The notes below the pieces were generated by a model. It searched no databases, had not been told where the DNA came from, and was given only the letters and a program-made list of their open reading frames with translations. The translations under genes were made by a program, and so were the position numbers. Positions 19,509-38,903 of a stretch of 64,000 bases of DNA are shown here, in pieces. Source of the DNA: Rutstroemia sp. NJR-2017a BVV2 (Eukaryota; Ascomycota; Leotiomycetes; Helotiales; Rutstroemiaceae); assembly GCA_002946415.1 (NCBI GenBank), contig NJPS01000034.1:682001-746000 (forward strand), read 5' to 3'. Positions within the stretch are counted from its first letter, which is position 1; each line of letters opens with the position of its first letter.

Positions 19509-19863
19509 GATTAAGGGAACTGGCCTTGATAAGATGTATGAACAATTTGGGGTTATCAGTCACTACACGAGGAATGCGCTCTAGAGGATGTTATGCGACT
19601 AGTCATATTTAACGGTTCTAAGAAATGGTTCTATCTTGAATAGCAACTTTCCACCACGAGGGGTATTATTTGTTGCAAATTATTTTGGTTTTCAGGCTTC
19701 AAGGGCTCCCGATTCTGAAGCTCCAATTTCATTACCTCAAGCGGCCATATTGTGATGGTCATGGCTTAGCGCTTTATCGGCTCCTCGAATAACACCCAGT
19801 TGACTTCCTTCCCCATCAGGATATGCCGGTCCTGCTTTTTTGTTAGGTTTCATCTATCCAGGC
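19509..19863. other. Short convergent intergenic region
   Basis: 355 bases between the stops of the SIMPL (+) and UstYa (-) genes. It probably holds both 3' UTRs. Nothing else seen. Confidence 0.5.
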
Positions 19864-20929
19864 TTATATTTGCGTACCTTTACCAGGGTGAACAAGCCAA
19901 CCTGGTTTCATCATGTCCACTGATCTTTCTCTACTCCACTTTTCCAGTCTGTCCCAATTGATGCACTGATGGGGAGTCTGGTGGTTAACAGGCATCAGAC
20001 TTTCTTCCGACCATTCATACGTTACAATTCCTATATCACCATGGCACATGGCAGCTTGCCGAAGGAAATCTAGACAGTGTTCTACAAGATTGTCATTAGT
20101 CATAAACAGGAGACCATAGCCAATTGGACATACCGTTGTGTATACGGTTGATCTCGCTTTGCTTCTCTGTCAAATTTGCCCAATATACCTCAGGGTAGCT
20201 ATACGAATATAGGCGTTTCTCGAAGGAAGTTAGCATGAGGGCGGCTTCAAAGACTGCTCCAAGAACGTACAATACAATGGAGCTCATGGAAGACATTGAG
20301 TGAGCCGATATATTTGTCGCTACCTGGGACTTTCACACCTGTGTCCTCACGACCATAACGACGCATGACCTCAGGCTCCAGCATGATGTTGTAAGCTTTA
20401 TGGTGTCAGTTTCGCTTTCTGGAACGCGAAGGGAATTTCTACCACAGACCGGTGAGCAGCTCATGCCAGTTATTATCAATCTCGGGTCGAGGATATCCTG
20501 AAAATGGACCATGCGCTGTATTGGTTTCGTTGTATGCTTGCTCTTGCCATATTATTGCGCTGTAAGCAGGAGCTACTTCGGTCTCAGTTCATTGTTCTTA
20601 CATCATTAGTCATTTGGTGGAAGACTGGACTTCTTACAATGAATAATGTCAGGTCCTTTAATTACTCGATCATGGAAGTGTCTGTTTAAGAGGAGGATGG
20701 ATATGATATAGAAAACGAACACGGCGCCGTTGAGAAGTATTAGTCGTGAATGTTTGCTGTAGTATGATCTATCTTGCCGCAACAGTTGTATCTCCTTTTC
20801 TAGAAGGGTGTTGTCTGACGACATGCCGTCGTCGGAATCAGAGGACCTCTCTTCGGATTGATCTTGTACTGATCGATATTTCTCGAGACTCTCAGACGCC
20901 CATGTCTTCTTAAAGAATGAAAATGACAT
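19864..20929 (-). CDS. UstYa family (DUF3328) oxidase, probable RiPP-cyclising enzyme
   Basis: Five exons (20929-20638, 20572-20450, 20395-20271, 20218-20134, 20081-19864) join in phase to 280 aa; the introns are 52-65 nt. A ~60-residue cytosolic, acidic N-terminus precedes one membrane anchor (about 62-82, LILLNGAVFVFYIISILLLN). The luminal domain carries both family signatures, HxxHC at 175-179 (HELHC) and HxxHC at 207-211 (HNEHC), then LRQAAMCHGDIGIVTYEW and HQCINWDRLEKW. UstYa proteins are copper-dependent oxidases that install macrocyclising C-O/C-C/C-N cross-links, often at Tyr, in dikaritin RiPPs, and also act in other pathways. It sits divergently ~2 kb from a KR-repeat precursor, which points to peptide cyclisation. 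The exon 2 donor (GTCTGT) is the least certain junction. Confidence 0.87.
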
Positions 20930-22906
20930 AATGGTCCGAATCTCAAAAATGGTTTGAAATTAAGAGATGAAATGGAAGACTTCAAACATCGTGGCAGAAG
21001 GAGGCAGGAGACTTTTGAAGGATAAGTCAATCCGGAACCTCTCCTTGCGATTTCGATGGCTGCCTCACGAGACCATAACAAAACATTGTTTTGGCTATGG
21101 CACGCCATACGCAGTGTGCATCTTCTAATCAAGGCATATCAACGTCGTTTAAGGATTGCGTGCTCATGAAGCTCATGATACAAGGCATCAGCTACGGCTG
21201 AGAAGCCCTAAGTGCGACACTGGCCAGAGTACGCAAACGAAGCATGCTGTGTAACTTGACCTGCATGTAGTCGAATCCCGCGATCGGTCTTGTTAATTGG
21301 TCTTGAATTTTTTATCAGCATGCAAGCTTGTGGTATACAAACACATGTGGTATTTTCCGAACCATTTCTCACCACACTTATAGGTTACGGAAAGCAGCCC
21401 TCAAACGCCTTTGGCCGTTGGTTTCAGCTGAAGGGTGCCAAGATCTAGTATACCGGCCGACGTGGCAACGTACGGCTACATCCGAACCTTAATTGGACAT
21501 CTGGAGATGTCTTGCAGCATCATGCTCACGAACTCCGGAACGCCTTTGGGCCGTATACATAAAATGATATCCAACCAGATGGTTTAATCCTCGATCTCTT
21601 CATGATATGATTTTGGCACAAGTTGACCACCCATCGAGGTGATGTAGCGGGAAACTACTTTCAACTCAGATATGGATATTCACCGCTCATTCCAAGAGCT
21701 TTGGCCGATAGATGATGTTGCATTCAATAAGTATATTGAAGTTGAGATAGGCTGAAAGTTTTTGCCGGAATCTACATGCAGGGAAATCGACGGAGTCTAA
21801 TCACATATTGGAGGCATACCTGAGGAACTCAATGAAGGGTAGTATTACGAGGGACTGTCGAAGGTCACATGCACAACGTCTTCTACAAGAATGTAACGTC
21901 GTCTATCCACTCCGAACTCCATTCATCTTAACATACTAAGGGTAGAGTGTATAGCATATATGTTTGTTGTTTGTTGGTATGCTGGCGCCTAGGAATATGC
22001 AAACGGTGCTGCCATAGTTGGCGTCTGGTACAAGGTTGAGTCCGGTATCTGCACATGATACCATTTACTTGGCCGACTTTCTTCGAAGCAACACGGTTCT
22101 TATGCTCTTAATTCTGCCATCTGGCTTGAACCGACAACGAGATGAGGTCTTTGGCGTCTAGAGTTGTATCTTGGAGTCAAGCTCATGGTCGTCGGCCGAG
22201 AGGATTTAGGTCCGTCGATGCCTTGAATAACGTCCGCCAAGGTCATTGAAACTCAAGGGTCTATGCAATGAAACTTTGTAAAGCCTCATGATTTTTCTAT
22301 TGCACAGCCAAGAACGTGCACACTGCTTCCTGAGCATGTAAGACTTCGTCGCCAACGGCCGTAAGGAGTTGCAAATCCATCAATGAGAGCTATTGTTGAT
22401 GACGAAAACGTTGAAGGGACTGTCATTTCCGACACTTTGCATATGTTATGCAACAGCAATGTCATGTCGTCGGTGGTTCAATGGCAGTTGTTTACAGAAG
22501 AGTCCAACGCGCTGGCCGATGTATCAATTTTGGCTGATGTGAAGCCTGCCACCTTCTCTCCTGCCTTGGACAACCAATCCAAGTTGAAAGATGTTACCCT
22601 ACTCTCGATTTTCCAGATCAGGACAGATGAACTCTCCGCATCTCGACGTCGTATGAACAGCCGGAGGACTTCAAATCACTTTGCTGCTACTCCCCCGTCC
22701 GAAGTGTATCTGGGCTGGCTAAGTGCGGATGAAGTGATGAAGGTCTTCTAAAGAAGACAAATATAAGAATGAGAAGATCTCCAGTCCAAACTCTCAACAT
22801 CATCAAAGCATCCTCAAGTACTTCACATCCTACACTTGCATCTTCAGACCTTCAGATAGCATTTCAAATTCGAAATCAACACAACTTCACGATCATCATC
22901 TTCACA
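20930..22906. promoter_or_regulatory. Divergent region between the UstYa gene (-) and the peptide precursor (+)
   Basis: About 2 kb that must contain the promoters of both putative cluster genes. The only sizeable open frame is 22383-22751 (+, 122 codons, no recognisable domain), listed separately. No transposon ends or transcription-factor gene seen. Confidence 0.5.
22383..22751 (+). CDS. Doubtful small ORF, unknown
   Basis: A 122-codon frame just upstream of the repeat precursor. I recognise no domain, signal peptide or membrane segment, and composition is ordinary. It ends about 155 bases before the precursor start, so it could be part of that transcript's leader or simply chance. Listed only because it is the longest frame in a 2-kb gap inside the putative cluster. 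Confidence 0.15.
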   Translation: MRAIVDDENVEGTVISDTLHMLCNSNVMSSVVQWQLFTEESNALADVSILADVKPATFSPALDNQSKLKDVTLLSIFQIRTDELSASRRRMNSRRTSNHFAATPPSEVYLGWLSADEVMKVF

Positions 22907-23896
22907 ATGCATTACTCATCTATCGTTCTTCCTCTTCTTGCCGTTATGGCATCTGCTTCTCCAATCCGCCCCGCTGTCGATGCCGACAATGCCATCGTCT
23001 ACCCAGCAGACGCAAAGCGTGCCGTTGATGCCGACAACGCTATCGTCTATGATGCTAAGCGAGCAATCGACGCTGACAATGCAATTGTCTACCCCGCCGA
23101 CGCTAAGCGTGCGGTCGATGCTGATGCGGCAATTGTCTACCCTGCCGATGCAAAACGTGCAGTCGATGCCGACAACGCCATCGTCTACCCAGCAGACGCA
23201 AAGCGTGCCGTTGATGCCGACAATGCTATCGTCTATGATGCTAAGCGAGCTATCGACGCTGACAATGCAATTGTCTACCCCGCCGATGCCAAACGAGCTG
23301 TTGATGCCGACAACGCCATCGTCTACCCAGCAGACGCAAAGCGTGCCGTTGATGCCGACAATGCTATCGTCTATGATGCTAAGCGAGCTATCGACGCTGA
23401 CAATGCAATTGTCTACCCCGCCGATGCCAAACGAGCTGTTGATGCTGATGCGGCAATTGTTTACCCTGCCGATGCCAAACGTGCAGTCGATGCCGACAAC
23501 GCTATTGTCTATGATGCTAAGCGAGCTATCGACGCTGATAATGCAATTGTCTATCCCGCCGATGCCAAGCGTGCGGTCGATGCTGATAACGCTATCGTCT
23601 ATGATGCTAAGCGAGCTATCGACGCTGATAATGCAATTGTCTATCCCGCCGATGCCAAGCGTGCGGTCGATGCTGATGCGGCAATTGTTTACCCTGCCGA
23701 TGCCAAACGTGCAGTCGATGCCGACAACGCTATCGTCTATGATGCTAAGCGAGCTATCGACGCTGATAATGCAATTGTCTATCCCGCCGATGCCAAGCGT
23801 GCGGTCGATGCTGATAATGCTATTGTCTATCCTGCAGACGCCAGAAGAGCTGTAGATGCCGACAACGCCATCGTCTACCCCGCTGACAATAACTAG
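22907..23896 (+). CDS. Kex2-processed multi-repeat secreted peptide precursor (dikaritin/UstA-like RiPP precursor candidate)
   Basis: Single-exon 329-aa protein. Residues 1-18 (MHYSSIVLPLLAVMASAS) form a typical signal peptide. The remainder is 20 head-to-tail repeats with consensus AVDADNAIVYPADAKR. Thirteen repeats have 16 residues and six lack the PA pair after Tyr (14 residues). The last one ends in ADNN and stop. Eighteen junctions are Lys-Arg and one is Arg-Arg, matching Kex2 cleavage. Each repeat has exactly one Tyr in IVY, no Cys and an acidic N-terminal part, as in fungal dikaritin precursors such as those of ustiloxin and phomopsin. The neighbouring UstYa gene supports a RiPP. The in-frame Met at 22769 would bury the signal peptide, so 22907 (context CACAATG) is taken as start. 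The mature core boundaries are not known; NAIVYPAD or a sub-part is likely. Confidence 0.88.
   Translation: MHYSSIVLPLLAVMASASPIRPAVDADNAIVYPADAKRAVDADNAIVYDAKRAIDADNAIVYPADAKRAVDADAAIVYPADAKRAVDADNAIVYPADAKRAVDADNAIVYDAKRAIDADNAIVYPADAKRAVDADNAIVYPADAKRAVDADNAIVYDAKRAIDADNAIVYPADAKRAVDADAAIVYPADAKRAVDADNAIVYDAKRAIDADNAIVYPADAKRAVDADNAIVYDAKRAIDADNAIVYPADAKRAVDADAAIVYPADAKRAVDADNAIVYDAKRAIDADNAIVYPADAKRAVDADNAIVYPADARRAVDADNAIVYPADNN
22973..23893 (+). repeat. Coding tandem repeat, 20 units of 48 or 42 bases
   Basis: Each unit encodes one DAD(N/A)AIVY(PA)DA-KR block. The 42-base units (repeats 2, 6, 9, 12, 14, 17) are each followed immediately by a unit starting Ala-Ile instead of Ala-Val. 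So the duplicating element is partly a 90-base pair of units. Repeats 4, 11 and 16 carry DADAA instead of DADNA and always follow an Ala-Ile unit. Confidence 0.9.
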
Positions 23897-24699
23897 ATTG
23901 CGAATTTACGCCTCTGGTGAGCACATACAATCCATTCCCCTAATTGCTATTTTCCTAATCAGAATCATCACAGATGCCGCAATAACTTCCTAGCAGCATA
24001 TCTAGTCATGTAGTTACTGGGATAATTTATCTTCTGCTTCAGCGCAAGGTGTGGCAAAGTGGTATCTAGAGTTAACAGGAAGAATACTGTGGTCTTTTGG
24101 TGGAAATATATGCTTGGATTGATTGATTGTGTTTGGCAGACGGTATTTGTTCATGGAGGAGTGGGTAGAAGTGATTGAATGAAGTATTTCTTTGCAAACT
24201 ACAAGTTCCATCTGTGCTTTGAAAACTACATTAACCTCGCATTTACCATCGTGAGATTCCCTCCCGAAGTCACCGAAGTTCAGGGAATCCGATTAGCTGT
24301 AGTGGATTAAAACAAAGTACTGCACCTGTCATGAGCCGCAACTCCGGAACCCATGTGAGACGCGCCTCGTGTTTTCGGCTTGCCGGGACAAGATAGACTT
24401 CGGGAGTTAGGGATTTACCTTGGCATGTAAGACGGATGAGTAAGTGTCTAATAGACGTCGTCTGCAGAAATTATGGATATCTTTCAGTTGAGGACTCATA
24501 AGCTTCATAAGCTTGCTGCGCAACCAATTCCGCAGTGGATTCCCCCAAAACTACCAGGCGAGGGGTTTCACGAATATGACAGTCGAAAAAAGGAATTATA
24601 ATAGTAGGCAATCTCGATTCTTATTTGTTTTTATCAGTAGAGTTTGTTTTGCAGTTTCATTCATCCAGGCACTTTTTGTCCTCATATTTAGCTTCGTGA
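23897..24699. other. Convergent intergenic region, precursor (+) / P450 (-)
   Basis: No gene. A possible 3'-UTR intron of the precursor lies at about 23917-23973 (GTGAGC donor, CTAAT, CACAG acceptor). The 24014-24211 (-) frame is unremarkable. Confidence 0.4.
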
Positions 24700-26503
24700 C
24701 TAGAGAGCAATTCCTTCCCTCTTTCTGATCTTGATCCAGACATTATCCCAGTAGAACATTGCACCAACAAGGACACGCTTCGTGGCTGGTGTCTCCTTGC
24801 TAGGGAGGCACAATCTTGGCTCAAAGTGGCGGAAGAACTGTTCGCCATAGTTATTAGTTACTGCTGTACAACACAAAACCGGAAGGGAAAAAGGGGAGCG
24901 AACTTACCATCAAAGGAGTCTTCATCAACTCCATCATTGCCAACTCCTTGCCCAAACAACCGCGAGTTCCGAAACCAAAAGTAGCAAGATATTTATCAAA
25001 CAATTTCCCCTTCTCTCCATCATCTTCCAACCAACGATCAGGTCTAAACTCATTCGCGTCTTCACCGTACAGTTCAGGATCGCGATTTGCCATGTATGCT
25101 GTGCTAGTAATTTCTGTGCCCACGGGAATGGTTTTTCCATCGATAACAAGAGGCGCATGATCGGCTTGCACAAGACGGGGGAAGATATTTGGAGCAGATG
25201 GGCACAATCGCAGAGATTCTTTGACGCAGGCTACATAGTAGGGGCAGTTCTTGGACACTTCGATAGAGGTGGGGATCGGCTTGGAGAGAACGCCGCGCTC
25301 GAAGGCAGAGTCGATTTCGGCGAGCATTTTACCGTAGACAATAGGTGAGCCAAGCATATAGTTCATCATGGCGCCCATAGTGGTGCCGGTAGTGTCAGCG
25401 CCGGCGGTGAAGAGGAGCATGCATTCAGCTCGGATGTGGTCTTCGGTTAGGGGCTGACCGGCTGGATCACGGGCTTCATAGAATCTGTTGAATTTGTTAG
25501 AAAAGTCTGCTCAATGAGGAAGGAAAAGATTGCGTACGATTGAAGAAGATCAACCCTGTTGTGGTTCTTTCCATCTGCAATCTCCTTTTCTCTAGCAGCC
25601 ATAATTCTATTGGTCCATCGGATGAGTAATCCCATTCCTCCCCTATCATTGGGGCCGGAAACAAGGAATTTTCCGAGCGGTGTCCTCTTGATGAACTCTA
25701 CGAATGGGTATAATCTACCGACAATTCCAAAGTAGAAGAATCCTCGATGAAGTTCCTTGATCAAATCATTGACATCAGTAGCAGTTTCAACAAACCCGAA
25801 TGCCTCTCCAAACCCAACCAAGCTGATGACATCAAATGCAGCATATGTAGCCCACTGTGCCATGTCAAATGCTTTATCAGTAGTCGCGAATAGCTCATCT
25901 AATTTCTTGATCCAGGCGACAATGACCTCGTCGACAAGGCTCTCACTCTTTTGAATTCTTGAAAAGGAGTATGGGAGAGCAATCAAGCGGCGGAAATGAG
26001 CGTGCTGTGAGTGCGGCTGCATGTTGAAGACGGACTCTCCGGGACCGAGAGCTCCCGTGACATACCATTTTGTCTTGACGGCTTGACGATGGTATATTTG
26101 TGGCAGAGAAAGTGCTGATGGAACCAGGAGCTCAGTTGGTGAAATTCGCAAGATTTTGGCTGCAATATTGTGTTAGTTACGAGATTACAGTAGAGATTGC
26201 GGAGTGCATACTTTTCTTCTCTTCCAGAAGTCTCTGGTAAGTTTCTAATTCAGTTCCTTTGATGTTTTCCAAAGTGTGCCATATCCTGGTGACAGATCCC
26301 CAGAACGGCCCAGGGTAATCTTTCAAGGGATGGAAGAATCGGTAGTAGATGATCTGGTAAAGGAATGGAACAATGATAGAGGCAAGAACCGCACCAGATA
26401 CGGTCGAGAACGTAAAGTAATCGTTGATTCGTACCACGGAGTCCGCGGACTCTGCGGGGTAACCGTCCACAACGGTGGAGGAGTTCACCATATACTCATT
26501 CAT
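24700..26503 (-). CDS. Cytochrome P450 monooxygenase, membrane anchored
   Basis: Four exons (26503-26212, 26159-25538, 25484-24908, 24837-24700; introns 52, 53 and 70 nt) give 542 aa. An N-terminal anchor at about 32-54 is followed by the hinge FFHPLKDYPGPFWGS. The I-helix oxygen-binding motif is AGADTT (332-337), the K-helix ExxR is E394-S-L-R397, and the PERF-type segment is FRPDRW. The haem loop FGFGTRGCLG spans 474-483, with Cys481 as thiolate ligand. The overall pattern resembles pisatin-demethylase-like fungal P450s of secondary metabolism. It lies convergent to the repeat precursor and may tailor the peptide; that role is inference from position. In the B-region the usual YGP-type residues read KTK across the first splice junction, so that junction merits cDNA checking. 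Confidence 0.9.
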
Positions 26504-29500: not shown

Positions 29501-29716
29501 ATAGGAACTTTGGAGTGACTGGAGGTAATGGTTCAGCGTTAAGCGCATGGGGTGGGATGAAGGAGATGATTATATCAACTGATGGATGTGATATATTTAA
29601 ATATGATCTGTATTCCCATCGACAAAGCCATCATTCAGCAGCCTTGCATTCACAACATCAGCTTTGCATCGAAAACTACCCGTGCCTATAAATCAATACA
29701 TATCATACTCGCAAAC
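26504..29716. other. Gene-poor 3.2-kb interval
   Basis: Between the start of the P450 and the start of the PrnB-like gene. The left ~300 bases are the P450 promoter and the right few hundred the promoter of the PrnB-like gene. AT-rich about 28020-28200. Frames such as 27180-27635 (+) have no recognisable domain. No transposon remnant was identified by eye. Confidence 0.45.
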
Positions 29717-31192
29717 ATGTGGGCTGTCCAAGATCTCATACTTGCTCGAACGCACATTGTACTCTTGTACACATTCCCAGTTGCCCTCATTGGCTTTTTC
29801 ATCAAGCACTATCTGAAGACCATCATCAACAGCTTCAGAAAGCAGGTCTCCTACTCCACCGCATACTACACCGAAGTCAAAACACCTGTCCGCGCACTCC
29901 ATCCAGCCGAGGCATCATTGAAAAATCTCATCGACGTAGACGGTGCAGGATCATGGCCACCACGGACTACATATGGGCAAGCTTGGCCGGAAGTTCTTCG
30001 ACCATACCACGACATTTACCTCGAACTTGTTCCTTCTCTATCAACTGAAGAACTATCCAAAGATGACAGGGTCAACTATCAACGGTGTTTGGATTATCGT
30101 GTCAGGTACAGACAGCTATTGACGGAACGTATCGATATGAAACAAGTTGCTGCAGTTCTCTCTGCATCTGAAAACGGAGCCAAGGACTTGCTGCCTGGAG
30201 AGGCTTGGAATGGACTCTTTGCTTGCATTGCTCTCTCAAGACATGCCTTCCGGTAAGTACTACTCATATATATTCAGGTTACATTTCTAACATGAAGTAG
30301 CTGGGGGACAATTCCTATCGTCAAGCTTGCCCAAGAAGAACAAGTCGTAGACATACCTGAAGAGCTAAACGTACCCTGGGAGTATCTCAAACGACGCTAT
30401 GGAGTGACATCTCAGGGTGGAAACGTAACTAGCAACTATCTCTGCAACTTCGACACCAAGGCACAGATTGTCTACCCAATTAACCCGGGCAAGTCCGACC
30501 TGATCCAACTAGCGGAATACCACTTCGGCCATGTATTCCCTGCAATGGAAGAACTAGCGCTGCCAATCTACCACTTAGTGACCAAGGCGATCCATCAGCA
30601 CTCCATTGGCGATCGCAGTGGCCTTCTCCAAACGCTCCGACAAATGAACGTCGAGATAAGGATACCCTTGAAGAACTACTACGAGACTATGGTGGAGACA
30701 AAAATCTCACGAAAGGTGTGGATGCATTACGCCCAGGGCTTCCAGGGGTGGGCTGCGGGAACCATCGATCCCGTTACTGGGGAATATACAGAATACGACG
30801 GTCTTTCTGGCAACCAATTGCTCTTCCCACAAATCATTGATGCCTTCCTGGGACTCGAAAAATACTTATCTGACGAAAACACAATCCGCTACATTCCGAA
30901 AAGCCAACAACGATTCAGAGAAGTCATCAAAGAACACAACTTCAGACAAAAAGCAAAAGATGCCGGCGATCTCGAAATTGAAGAAGAAATGAACAATATT
31001 GTGAAGCAAATGAGAGTGTTCAGAACTGCTCACAGGGTCAGAGTCAAGCCATACCTGAGCGTTCCCGCTCCGGAGCGACTGATCATGACGGCAGGAAAGA
31101 GTGTCTTGGAAAGCGAACGGGTTCAAGGGTATGAAGAGGCGATCGCGCCATTAGACAAGATGCTTGGCGACAGATTGATGGCAACAAGGTGA
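29717..31192 (+). CDS. IDO-superfamily haem-dioxygenase-like protein (DUF1864/PrnB-like)
   Basis: Two exons (29717-30252, 30301-31192; 48-nt intron) give 475 aa. A hydrophobic N-terminal segment at about 14-36 (VLLYTFPVALIGFFIKHYL) looks like a signal anchor. The body is all-helical, with GEAWNGLFACIALSRHAFRW, VTSQGGNVTSNYLCNF, GHVFPAMEELALPIYHLV, GFQGWAAGTID, YDGLSGNQLLFPQIIDAFLG and RTAHRVRVKPYL. These resemble the DUF1864/PrnB family. The indoleamine-2,3-dioxygenase superfamily to which it belongs binds haem through His and acts on indoles; PrnB converts 7-chlorotryptophan in pyrrolnitrin synthesis. The substrate here is unknown and the family call is from memory of conserved blocks. It is ~6 kb from the peptide precursor, so cluster membership is uncertain. 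Confidence 0.6.
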
Positions 31193-37517: not shown

Positions 37518-38903
37518 CTAAAACGGCTCCGCCTTCCCCGTCGGATTATACTTATTCCCCGGAAACGCCGCAAAGAGTCCCGTATTATATCCCGCCAGCT
37601 CCGGACAACTCAATTTCGTCAAAATCGGCGCCAACTGTGACGTAGCCCAAGCCAGTACCGCCGCAACGTCACTCACAATGCCCGAAATCGCATCCGGGAT
37701 GCTCAACCGCATAGCCTGAATGACGAAACACGCCAGATTATTTCCCTCCACCAAATTCGCACTGTTATATGTACCACCCGTGAGATTCCCTAGATCCACA
37801 CCTGCAAACGAGTTCACAGTCCCAGTGTTGCCCCCGATGCGGACAGAGTCCGGGTAGGCGCGGAGATTGGCAAGGACATCAAGAACTCCGGAGGTGAGGG
37901 TGTAGGGGTTGGTTGAGGGACGGCGGTACCAGTTGGTGGGGATGCGTTCTTGGCCTTTGTTCCAGACAAGAGCAGAGTCGGGACCGCTGACGCCGAAGAA
38001 GGATTTCAGAGTATCGCGGTCGAGGTAGCCGTTCGGTTGTTCAGCACTATGATTCGAGAACATATTGATGACGAAGGGGTGTGCTACGGAGGCAGCGAAA
38101 CCAGCGAATGGGGGCGAGAAGAAGTAGGGGTTGGTGGATACTGATTGTGCGCGACTCCAGGCTCCATGGTCGCGGGTAGCGGAGATATTGTAGTTGTCGT
38201 TGTAGGCGAGGTTGTAGAAATCTGGCGACGGTTAGGTTAGTTCAACGTGGTAGAAATTTTTGCGAAAGGGATGAAATTTACGTTGGAACTTGGTCATATT
38301 AAGGGAGTGAGCATCTCCATGATTAGTGTAGGCATCAGACTAAGAAGATTAATAAGTGAAATGTCGAGAAGAGCGGTAGACTGTAGACTTACTCGAGCAA
38401 AGGATGCATCAGCCTCATACCTATTGTGAGAGTATGAGATACCCTGAGGATTTCCGCCCAGTAAATTCAGAAGAGAGCTAGTATAAGGACCGCCAATTGA
38501 CCAAGTCAAAGTACTAATATCTCCAGCTTGGACGACAGCAACAATTCCTAGGACAGTAGCCAAGTCAGTGCCAAAGTTGAAAGCTGCCTCCAGGCCCAAG
38601 ATAGCTAAAGGAGTTAGCAAAAATACATTATGATAACAATCAGAGAACGTATTTACATTGTGCGAGGGTTGTAATGCCATTGTGAGGAAGGTAGCCATGA
38701 TTGGCAGCAGCATTCAAACCAGGACAAGGGCCACGAATATCTGTGGCTCCAGGTGCAATGTATTGATGGCCCGTTGCGGAAGAGACATCAACGAATTGAT
38801 CAACCGGATCAAAATTAAGGCAAGGGATTTGACCACAGTTAGATTCCGCAGCTGTACCAACAATGCTAGAAGCAAAAGTAATGACCAACGTAGAGATCTT
38901 CAT
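37518..38903 (-). CDS. Peroxidase family 2 haem-thiolate enzyme (unspecific peroxygenase/chloroperoxidase-like), secreted
   Basis: Four exons (38903-38657, 38604-38393, 38339-38282, 38221-37518; introns 52-60 nt) give 406 aa. Residues 1-19 are a signal peptide. The haem-ligand motif Pro-Cys-Pro is at 59-61 in DIRGPCPGLNAAANHGYLPH. The acid-base region is YEADASFAR, with Glu146 in the place of the Glu-Gly-Asp or Glu-His-Asp of characterised enzymes. NHGDAHSLNMTKF and ARDHGAWSR-like segments also fit the long-type family. These extracellular enzymes use hydrogen peroxide to oxygenate or halogenate organic substrates. Several N-glycosylation sequons fit secretion. Actual chemistry cannot be read from sequence. 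Confidence 0.87.

Follow-up and report, generated by a model that had tools for sequence, protein, structure and literature searches.

The gene described here, an intronless ORF of Rutstroemia sp. NJR-2017a BVV2, is probably (at about 0.8) the precursor of a fungal RiPP of the ustiloxin/asperipin type. It encodes 20 short repeats separated by dibasic sites and lies next to an intact UstYa gene and, judged from its sequence, it is likely to give rise to a small cyclic peptide, as yet uncharacterised, from a general class that is known. The locus is located in a 64,000-nucleotide stretch (the window) of contig C28, in an assembly of 43.4 Mb and 79 contigs. The relevant features are:

22907..23896, + strand: precursor gene (KEP), intronless, 329 aa plus stop, with a signal-peptide-like N-terminus (residues 1 to ~17–18) and 20 repeats
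22973..23893, + strand: repeat array, in the order abcdabcabcdbcbcdbcef
19737..20929, − strand: UstYa (DUF3328, PF11807) homologue, 308 aa, transcribed away from the precursor; six exons (20929–20638, 20575–20450, 20395–20271, 20218–20134, 20081–19878, 19831–19737)
24657..26503, − strand: cytochrome P450, ~542 aa, four exons from a simple splice search, the last exon boundary being uncertain
29570..31189, + strand: indoleamine-2,3-dioxygenase (IDO)-like gene, with PF01231 in its second ORF (29.9 bits against a cut-off of 26)

The precursor sequence occurs once in the genome, at this gene, as seen in a whole-genome search. Its hydrophobic N-terminus ends in ...AVMASAS, which is AxA/AxS-like, and is followed by a short SPIRP stretch. 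The signal peptide is putative and read from hydropathy, which peaks at a mean Kyte–Doolittle value of 2.49 over residues 5–16. An upstream in-frame ATG at 22769 would yield a product of 375 aa; we favor the ATG at 22907, as this places the hydrophobic stretch at the N-terminus.

The repeats follow the consensus A-V/I-D-A-D-N/A-A-I-V-Y-(PA)-D-A (n = 20) and come in six kinds: a, AVDADNAIVYPADAKR (three copies); b, AVDADNAIVYDAKR (six); c, AIDADNAIVYPADAKR (six); d, AVDADAAIVYPADAKR (three); e, ending in PADARR, AVDADNAIVYPADARR (one); and f, the terminal repeat ending in PADNN, AVDADNAIVYPADNN (one). Position 2 is Val in 14 repeats and Ile in six; at position 6, 17 repeats have Asn and three have Ala; and Pro-Ala follows the tyrosine in 14 and is absent from six. 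These counts bear out the variants listed in the original prediction (N or A before AIVY, V or I at position 2, with or without Pro-Ala). A dibasic site marks each of the 19 junctions (18 KR and one RR), with intervals of 14 or 16 residues between successive sites. The array closes on DNN in its last repeat, and SPIRP stands ahead of the first repeat in place of a dibasic site. Shuffling the precursor residues (2,000 trials) gave a mean of 4.1 dibasic sites and never more than 10, against 19 in the real sequence; a chance repeat was rejected. The precursor contains 21 tyrosines, one in the signal peptide and one in each of the 20 repeats. KEPs are recognized by at least three near-identical repeats split by KR, RR or KK, and here there are 20. 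The ORF, when split at its junctions, thus agrees with what had been predicted (20 repeats, KR or RR at 19 junctions and one Tyr per repeat, with a hydrophobic N-terminus where a signal peptide was called), and the regularity of the junctions supports its reading as a Kex2-processed repeat precursor.

The repeats differ from one another mainly at silent sites. Among 19 of them (the last one was excluded), pS is 0.72 and pN 0.039, resulting in a pN/pS of 0.054. This strong silent divergence, with few amino-acid changes, means that the peptide sequence is under selection. At the DNA level, the array has higher-order periods of 90 and 138 bases, the mark of block duplication. The original prediction called the copy number high, which holds for 20 copies as such, but it is unexceptional beside the 3 to 129 repeats of the KEPs in Le Marquer 2019, where the second largest count is 38 (PMC6339444).

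The UstYa gene, which was absent from the original prediction, strengthens the RiPP reading. All six of its exons join cleanly at GT..AG, and the product matches PF11807 with 169.5 bits (cut-off 25, E = 1.3e-49). It has one hydrophobic, TM-like segment close to the N-terminus and both HxxHC motifs (HELHC and HNEHC) intact. At least two such motifs are found in 81 of its 90 homologues and at least one in 88; the paired motif is a suspected active-site component (PMC12048977). The gene lies upstream of the precursor, with 1,977 bp between the two start codons. A PF11807 profile search of the genome returned 79 exon matches, forming 31 clusters when matches within 10 kb were merged. Contig C28 has two of these exon matches, 2.3 kb upstream of the precursor and belonging to one gene, and the same search found no second UstYa gene on this contig. 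Since just 0.52% of the genome is within 2.5 kb of a UstYa match, chance adjacency of UstYa and the precursor is unlikely. In a quick tree, the UstYa protein pairs at a support of 100 with P0001 of Monilinia laxa (EYC80_004494), to which it is 74% identical, and this pair nests in a group of 20 sequences (support 98) that also includes Pseudogymnoascus, Hypoxylon, Colletotrichum and Cordyceps. UstYa proteins from Histoplasma and Paracoccidioides form an adjoining group.

The same arrangement recurs elsewhere in the genome. We took 22 stretches, chosen roughly by score and touching 19 other UstYa clusters (11 of the 31 clusters are outside this sample), and scanned them crudely for KEPs by looking for 4- or 5-mers repeated exactly where dibasic sites occur. 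Kex2-repeat genes were found at 5 of the 19 clusters, 1.4–2.7 kb from the nearest UstYa match, a count that is a lower bound because the scan is crude:

L013:8498–8875: Kex2-repeat gene
L017:6613–6963: Kex2-repeat gene
L025:9428–10000: Kex2-repeat gene (cut)
L026:7773–8768: Kex2-repeat gene, di-His repeat
L027:1657–1920: Kex2-repeat gene, QDRGTD repeat

All five differ in repeat sequence. Three have Tyr-bearing repeats (...YVHGSYGYDKR, ...GANRYATAKR and ...FGPYPEDDYANKKR); the repeats of L026 and L027 are Tyr-less, so adjacency to UstYa is no proof of Tyr cross-linking, and they raise the question of what job UstYa performs there. A looser second scan additionally returned the L013 gene in a different frame, L017:1578–2816 and L021:9234–9587, which were judged not to be KEPs and kept out of the count. 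In the rest of the window, the crude scan found no further Kex2-repeat gene. These numbers fit the association described by Umemura 2020 (PMC7329392), where DUF3328 genes are near 1,758 of 7,878 KEPs at a mean distance of 3.09 genes, and where Tyr occurs in 65.6% of the repeats of DUF3328-neighboured KEPs versus 38.2% for the rest. As side observations, dense UstYa arrays occur at C34:1021121–1031909 (~11 kb, also with a repeat precursor) and C58:584424–590629 (~6 kb). In addition, the UstYa matches on contig C74 score as those on C25 (at the same coordinates) and on C50 (in reverse order). C74 may therefore duplicate parts of C25 and C50, in which case the UstYa counts are slightly inflated.

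The main rival to cyclisation is that kexin releases linear secreted peptides (a signal, an effector or a surface component) that are never cross-linked, with UstYa serving something else. Many KEPs do yield linear or minimally modified peptides (PMC9769878), and 78% of those in Umemura 2020 are without a DUF3328 neighbour (PMC7329392). Here, however, the distance to an intact UstYa gene is 2 kb, a proximity that about 0.5% of the genome would be expected to have, and the tyrosine is retained in 20 of 20 repeats, which leaves the linear reading improbable, if still worth keeping in mind. Far less probable is a repeat protein with a repellent, cell-wall or structural function, in which the dibasic residues are incidental. 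The product is indeed repetitive, Ala-rich and predicted to be secreted, and its Pfam scan, which gave no match above cut-off, has sub-threshold hits to the YdcK beta-solenoid (24.8 of 30 bits) and Gp5_trimer_C (17.5 of 30.9 bits). Such a protein is at odds with the regular dibasic spacing at 19 of 19 junctions, with the short and acidic repeats, and with the adjoining UstYa gene.

Least credible of all is an alpha-type sex pheromone precursor, despite the shared architecture (signal peptide, repeats and KR junctions) and the XA-type dipeptides that follow the junctions, as for Ste13 targets. The repeat at 22907–23896 has neither Trp nor Cys, and a separate gene on contig C55 carries 10 copies of WCGRPGQPC (WCxRPGQxC type), which we take to be the pheromone sequence of this fungal group; these are the 10 matches in the genome, none of them in the window. 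The sex-pheromone role therefore belongs to another gene. Moreover, pheromone genes almost never have a DUF3328 neighbour in Umemura 2020, the exceptions being three, one of them in another Rutstroemia strain (PMC7329392). In our strain, the alpha-pheromone-type precursor (C55:295612–296535, L034–L037) lies ~10.4 kb from UstYa matches at C55:284529–285248.

Returning to a RiPP precursor as the preferred reading, its chemistry, which we infer as a whole, would proceed in four steps. The N-terminus suggests that the translated precursor enters the ER. Given the dibasic sites, kexin would then cut after each KR or RR and Kex1 would trim the ends, resulting in ~20 peptides with four main sequences (AVDADNAIVYPADA, AVDADNAIVYDA, AIDADNAIVYPADA and AVDADAAIVYPADA); the genome has one match to the kexin-type P_proprotein domain. 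In linear form these four have calculated [M+H]+ values of 1404.664, 1236.574, 1418.680 and 1361.658, respectively, and every cross-link would reduce the mass by 2.016. Subsequently, the membrane-anchored UstYa homologue would oxidatively cross-link the repeat's one Tyr to the side chain of a nearby residue. Its most plausible partner is the Ile or Val directly before it, because Ile-Val directly precedes Tyr in 20 of 20 repeats; these contain no other aromatic residue. In known products, the aromatic residue is linked to an Ile after Tyr (ustiloxins and phomopsins) or before Tyr (epichloecyclins) (PMC9233826), and a single UstY protein is by itself essential for the biosynthesis of asperipin-2a, a case in which a lone UstY can do without tyrosinase (PMC6514808). 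Finally, and speculatively, the P450 might oxidize the product further, while proteases encoded outside the cluster trim the acidic flanks.

The P450 gene is downstream of and convergent with the precursor. It has an intact haem motif (FGFGTRGCLG) and is apparently intact as a whole, and its position would suggest a role in the pathway. Relatives of the P450 at other UstYa loci are weak matches (30–39% identity) at three loci (L018 with the overlapping L007, and L020). For the IDO-like gene, possibly an outer cluster member or else unrelated, no relative was found at other UstYa loci. Farther out, the right side has, besides the IDO-like gene, a GH15 glucoamylase gene, and the left side has SIMPL and L28-type ribosomal protein genes. 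This survey of the neighbours probably limits the cluster to the precursor, UstYa and the P450, with the IDO-like gene as an uncertain member. Contig C28 has none of the 23 tyrosinase (PF00264) matches and none of the four S41 peptidase (PF03572) matches in the genome, and no methyltransferase was seen among the ten ORF products of the window that were scanned with Pfam. Separately, a haem peroxidase of family 2 that looks secreted (PF01328, chloroperoxidase type) is encoded at 37521–38713 of the window (− strand, two ORF pieces), a call that rests on the Pfam scan of the piece 37521–38231 and is not tied to the cluster.

How the locus is classified depends on the definition used. The genomic features tested for a UstY-RiPP in the broad sense (ust-RiPS, or broad dikaritins) are all present by sequence: a UstYa gene near the precursor and two HxxHC motifs. 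The dikaritin reading of the original prediction is plausible in this sense and unsupported under the first, five-gene definition of the class (by Ding 2016, quoted in PMC12048977). Besides a methyltransferase and a peptidase (S41 type) or transporter, that definition names a tyrosinase and multiple DUF3328 genes; these last two are absent on contig C28, as is an S41 match. With no tyrosinase and a single UstYa, the locus is not that of a dikaritin in the strict sense.

By analogy, the closest known layout is that of asperipin-2a (apr), which shares the Kex2-repeat precursor, the single UstY homologue and the lack of a tyrosinase (PMC6514808). Asperipin-2a differs in its core (FYYTGY, with three aromatics and two rings) and in its cluster, which has a reductase and a transporter where this locus has a P450. 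Ustiloxins and phomopsins share the signal peptide, the KR-split repeats and a UstYa-type enzyme, and the ustiloxin cluster also has a P450; however, their core is YxIx (Tyr before Ile), and they have several UstY genes, a tyrosinase and an S41 peptidase. Epichloecyclins (GigA) come from a multicore Kex2 precursor as well, with an Ile before Tyr that is said to be linked, in the same order as IVY here, whereas their sequence is otherwise unlike ours and their precursor has four repeats with core nonapeptides (PMC9233826).

The closest published sequence is motif 3 of Le Marquer 2019, a conserved KEP core of Pezizomycotina (DADAATXYV[A/V]D; PMC6339444). Compared to this core consensus alone, DADAAIVYPAD, found in 3 of 20 repeats, agrees at 8 of its 10 fixed positions; for DADNAIVYPAD, the form seen in 11 of 20, the count is 7 of 10. 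Motif 3 and our repeat are both short and Kex2-bounded, with a lone Tyr surrounded by acidic and Ala-rich sequence; our repeat carries I/V where the motif has T/X ahead of Tyr, and P where the motif has V behind Tyr. Type G-6 of Umemura 2020 likewise combines Y with several D, has a DUF3328 neighbour in 46 of 49 members and includes Rutstroemia, a genus found in several KEP types (PMC7329392). Among the named matches P0001–P0054, close homologues of our UstYa occur in 9 of the 18 other G-6 genera, against 3/19 for G-3, 4/18 for G-5, 3/18 for G-8, 3/11 for G-10 and 5/34 for G-2, an indirect overlap given the size and good sampling of several genera. The motif 3 match, the G-6 features and this genus overlap together place the gene, as far as sequence can tell, most likely in a KEP group that has been catalogued before and is chemically uncharacterised.

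The precursor had been called undescribed-looking, and in the literature text searched (outside subscription journals, supplementary tables and figures), the exact repeat strings were indeed not found; the novelty is reduced by the similar published core, motif 3 (PMC6339444). The text searches for the repeat led to PMC6339444 and to a paper on plant-virus coat proteins, which was unrelated and set aside. In protein searches, the whole precursor gave no match with E <= 0.001 among 7,997 scored candidates, a list crowded by low-complexity words in which its own record is missing too. Residues 1–90 gave none with E <= 10 among 7,998, which does not imply that homologues are absent. A tblastn search against plasmids likewise came up empty, which is unsurprising for a fungal gene. 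The protein searches returned no precursor homologue in which co-conservation of precursor and UstYa could be traced.

Few of the 7,878 KEPs catalogued by Umemura 2020 have known products (PMC7329392). The locus described here is compact (precursor, one UstYa and one P450), with a single aromatic residue per repeat that leaves Tyr as the sole plausible cross-link donor. This makes the action of a lone UstYa directly testable, and the predicted peptide masses are simple. Should the link to motif 3 and type G-6 hold, one solved product would account for a peptide family in many genera. More tentatively, and at this stage as a minority possibility, a UstYa pathway that is conserved and works independently of tyrosinase (with one UstYa and possibly one P450) may link the Ile or Val before Tyr in DAD(N/A)AIVY, with related precursors and orthologous UstYa proteins across Pezizomycotina, including plant- and animal-associated genera. 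Such a pathway would point to a new type of cyclopeptide scaffold whose role is conserved, and perhaps developmental, and not that of a toxin confined to one lineage.
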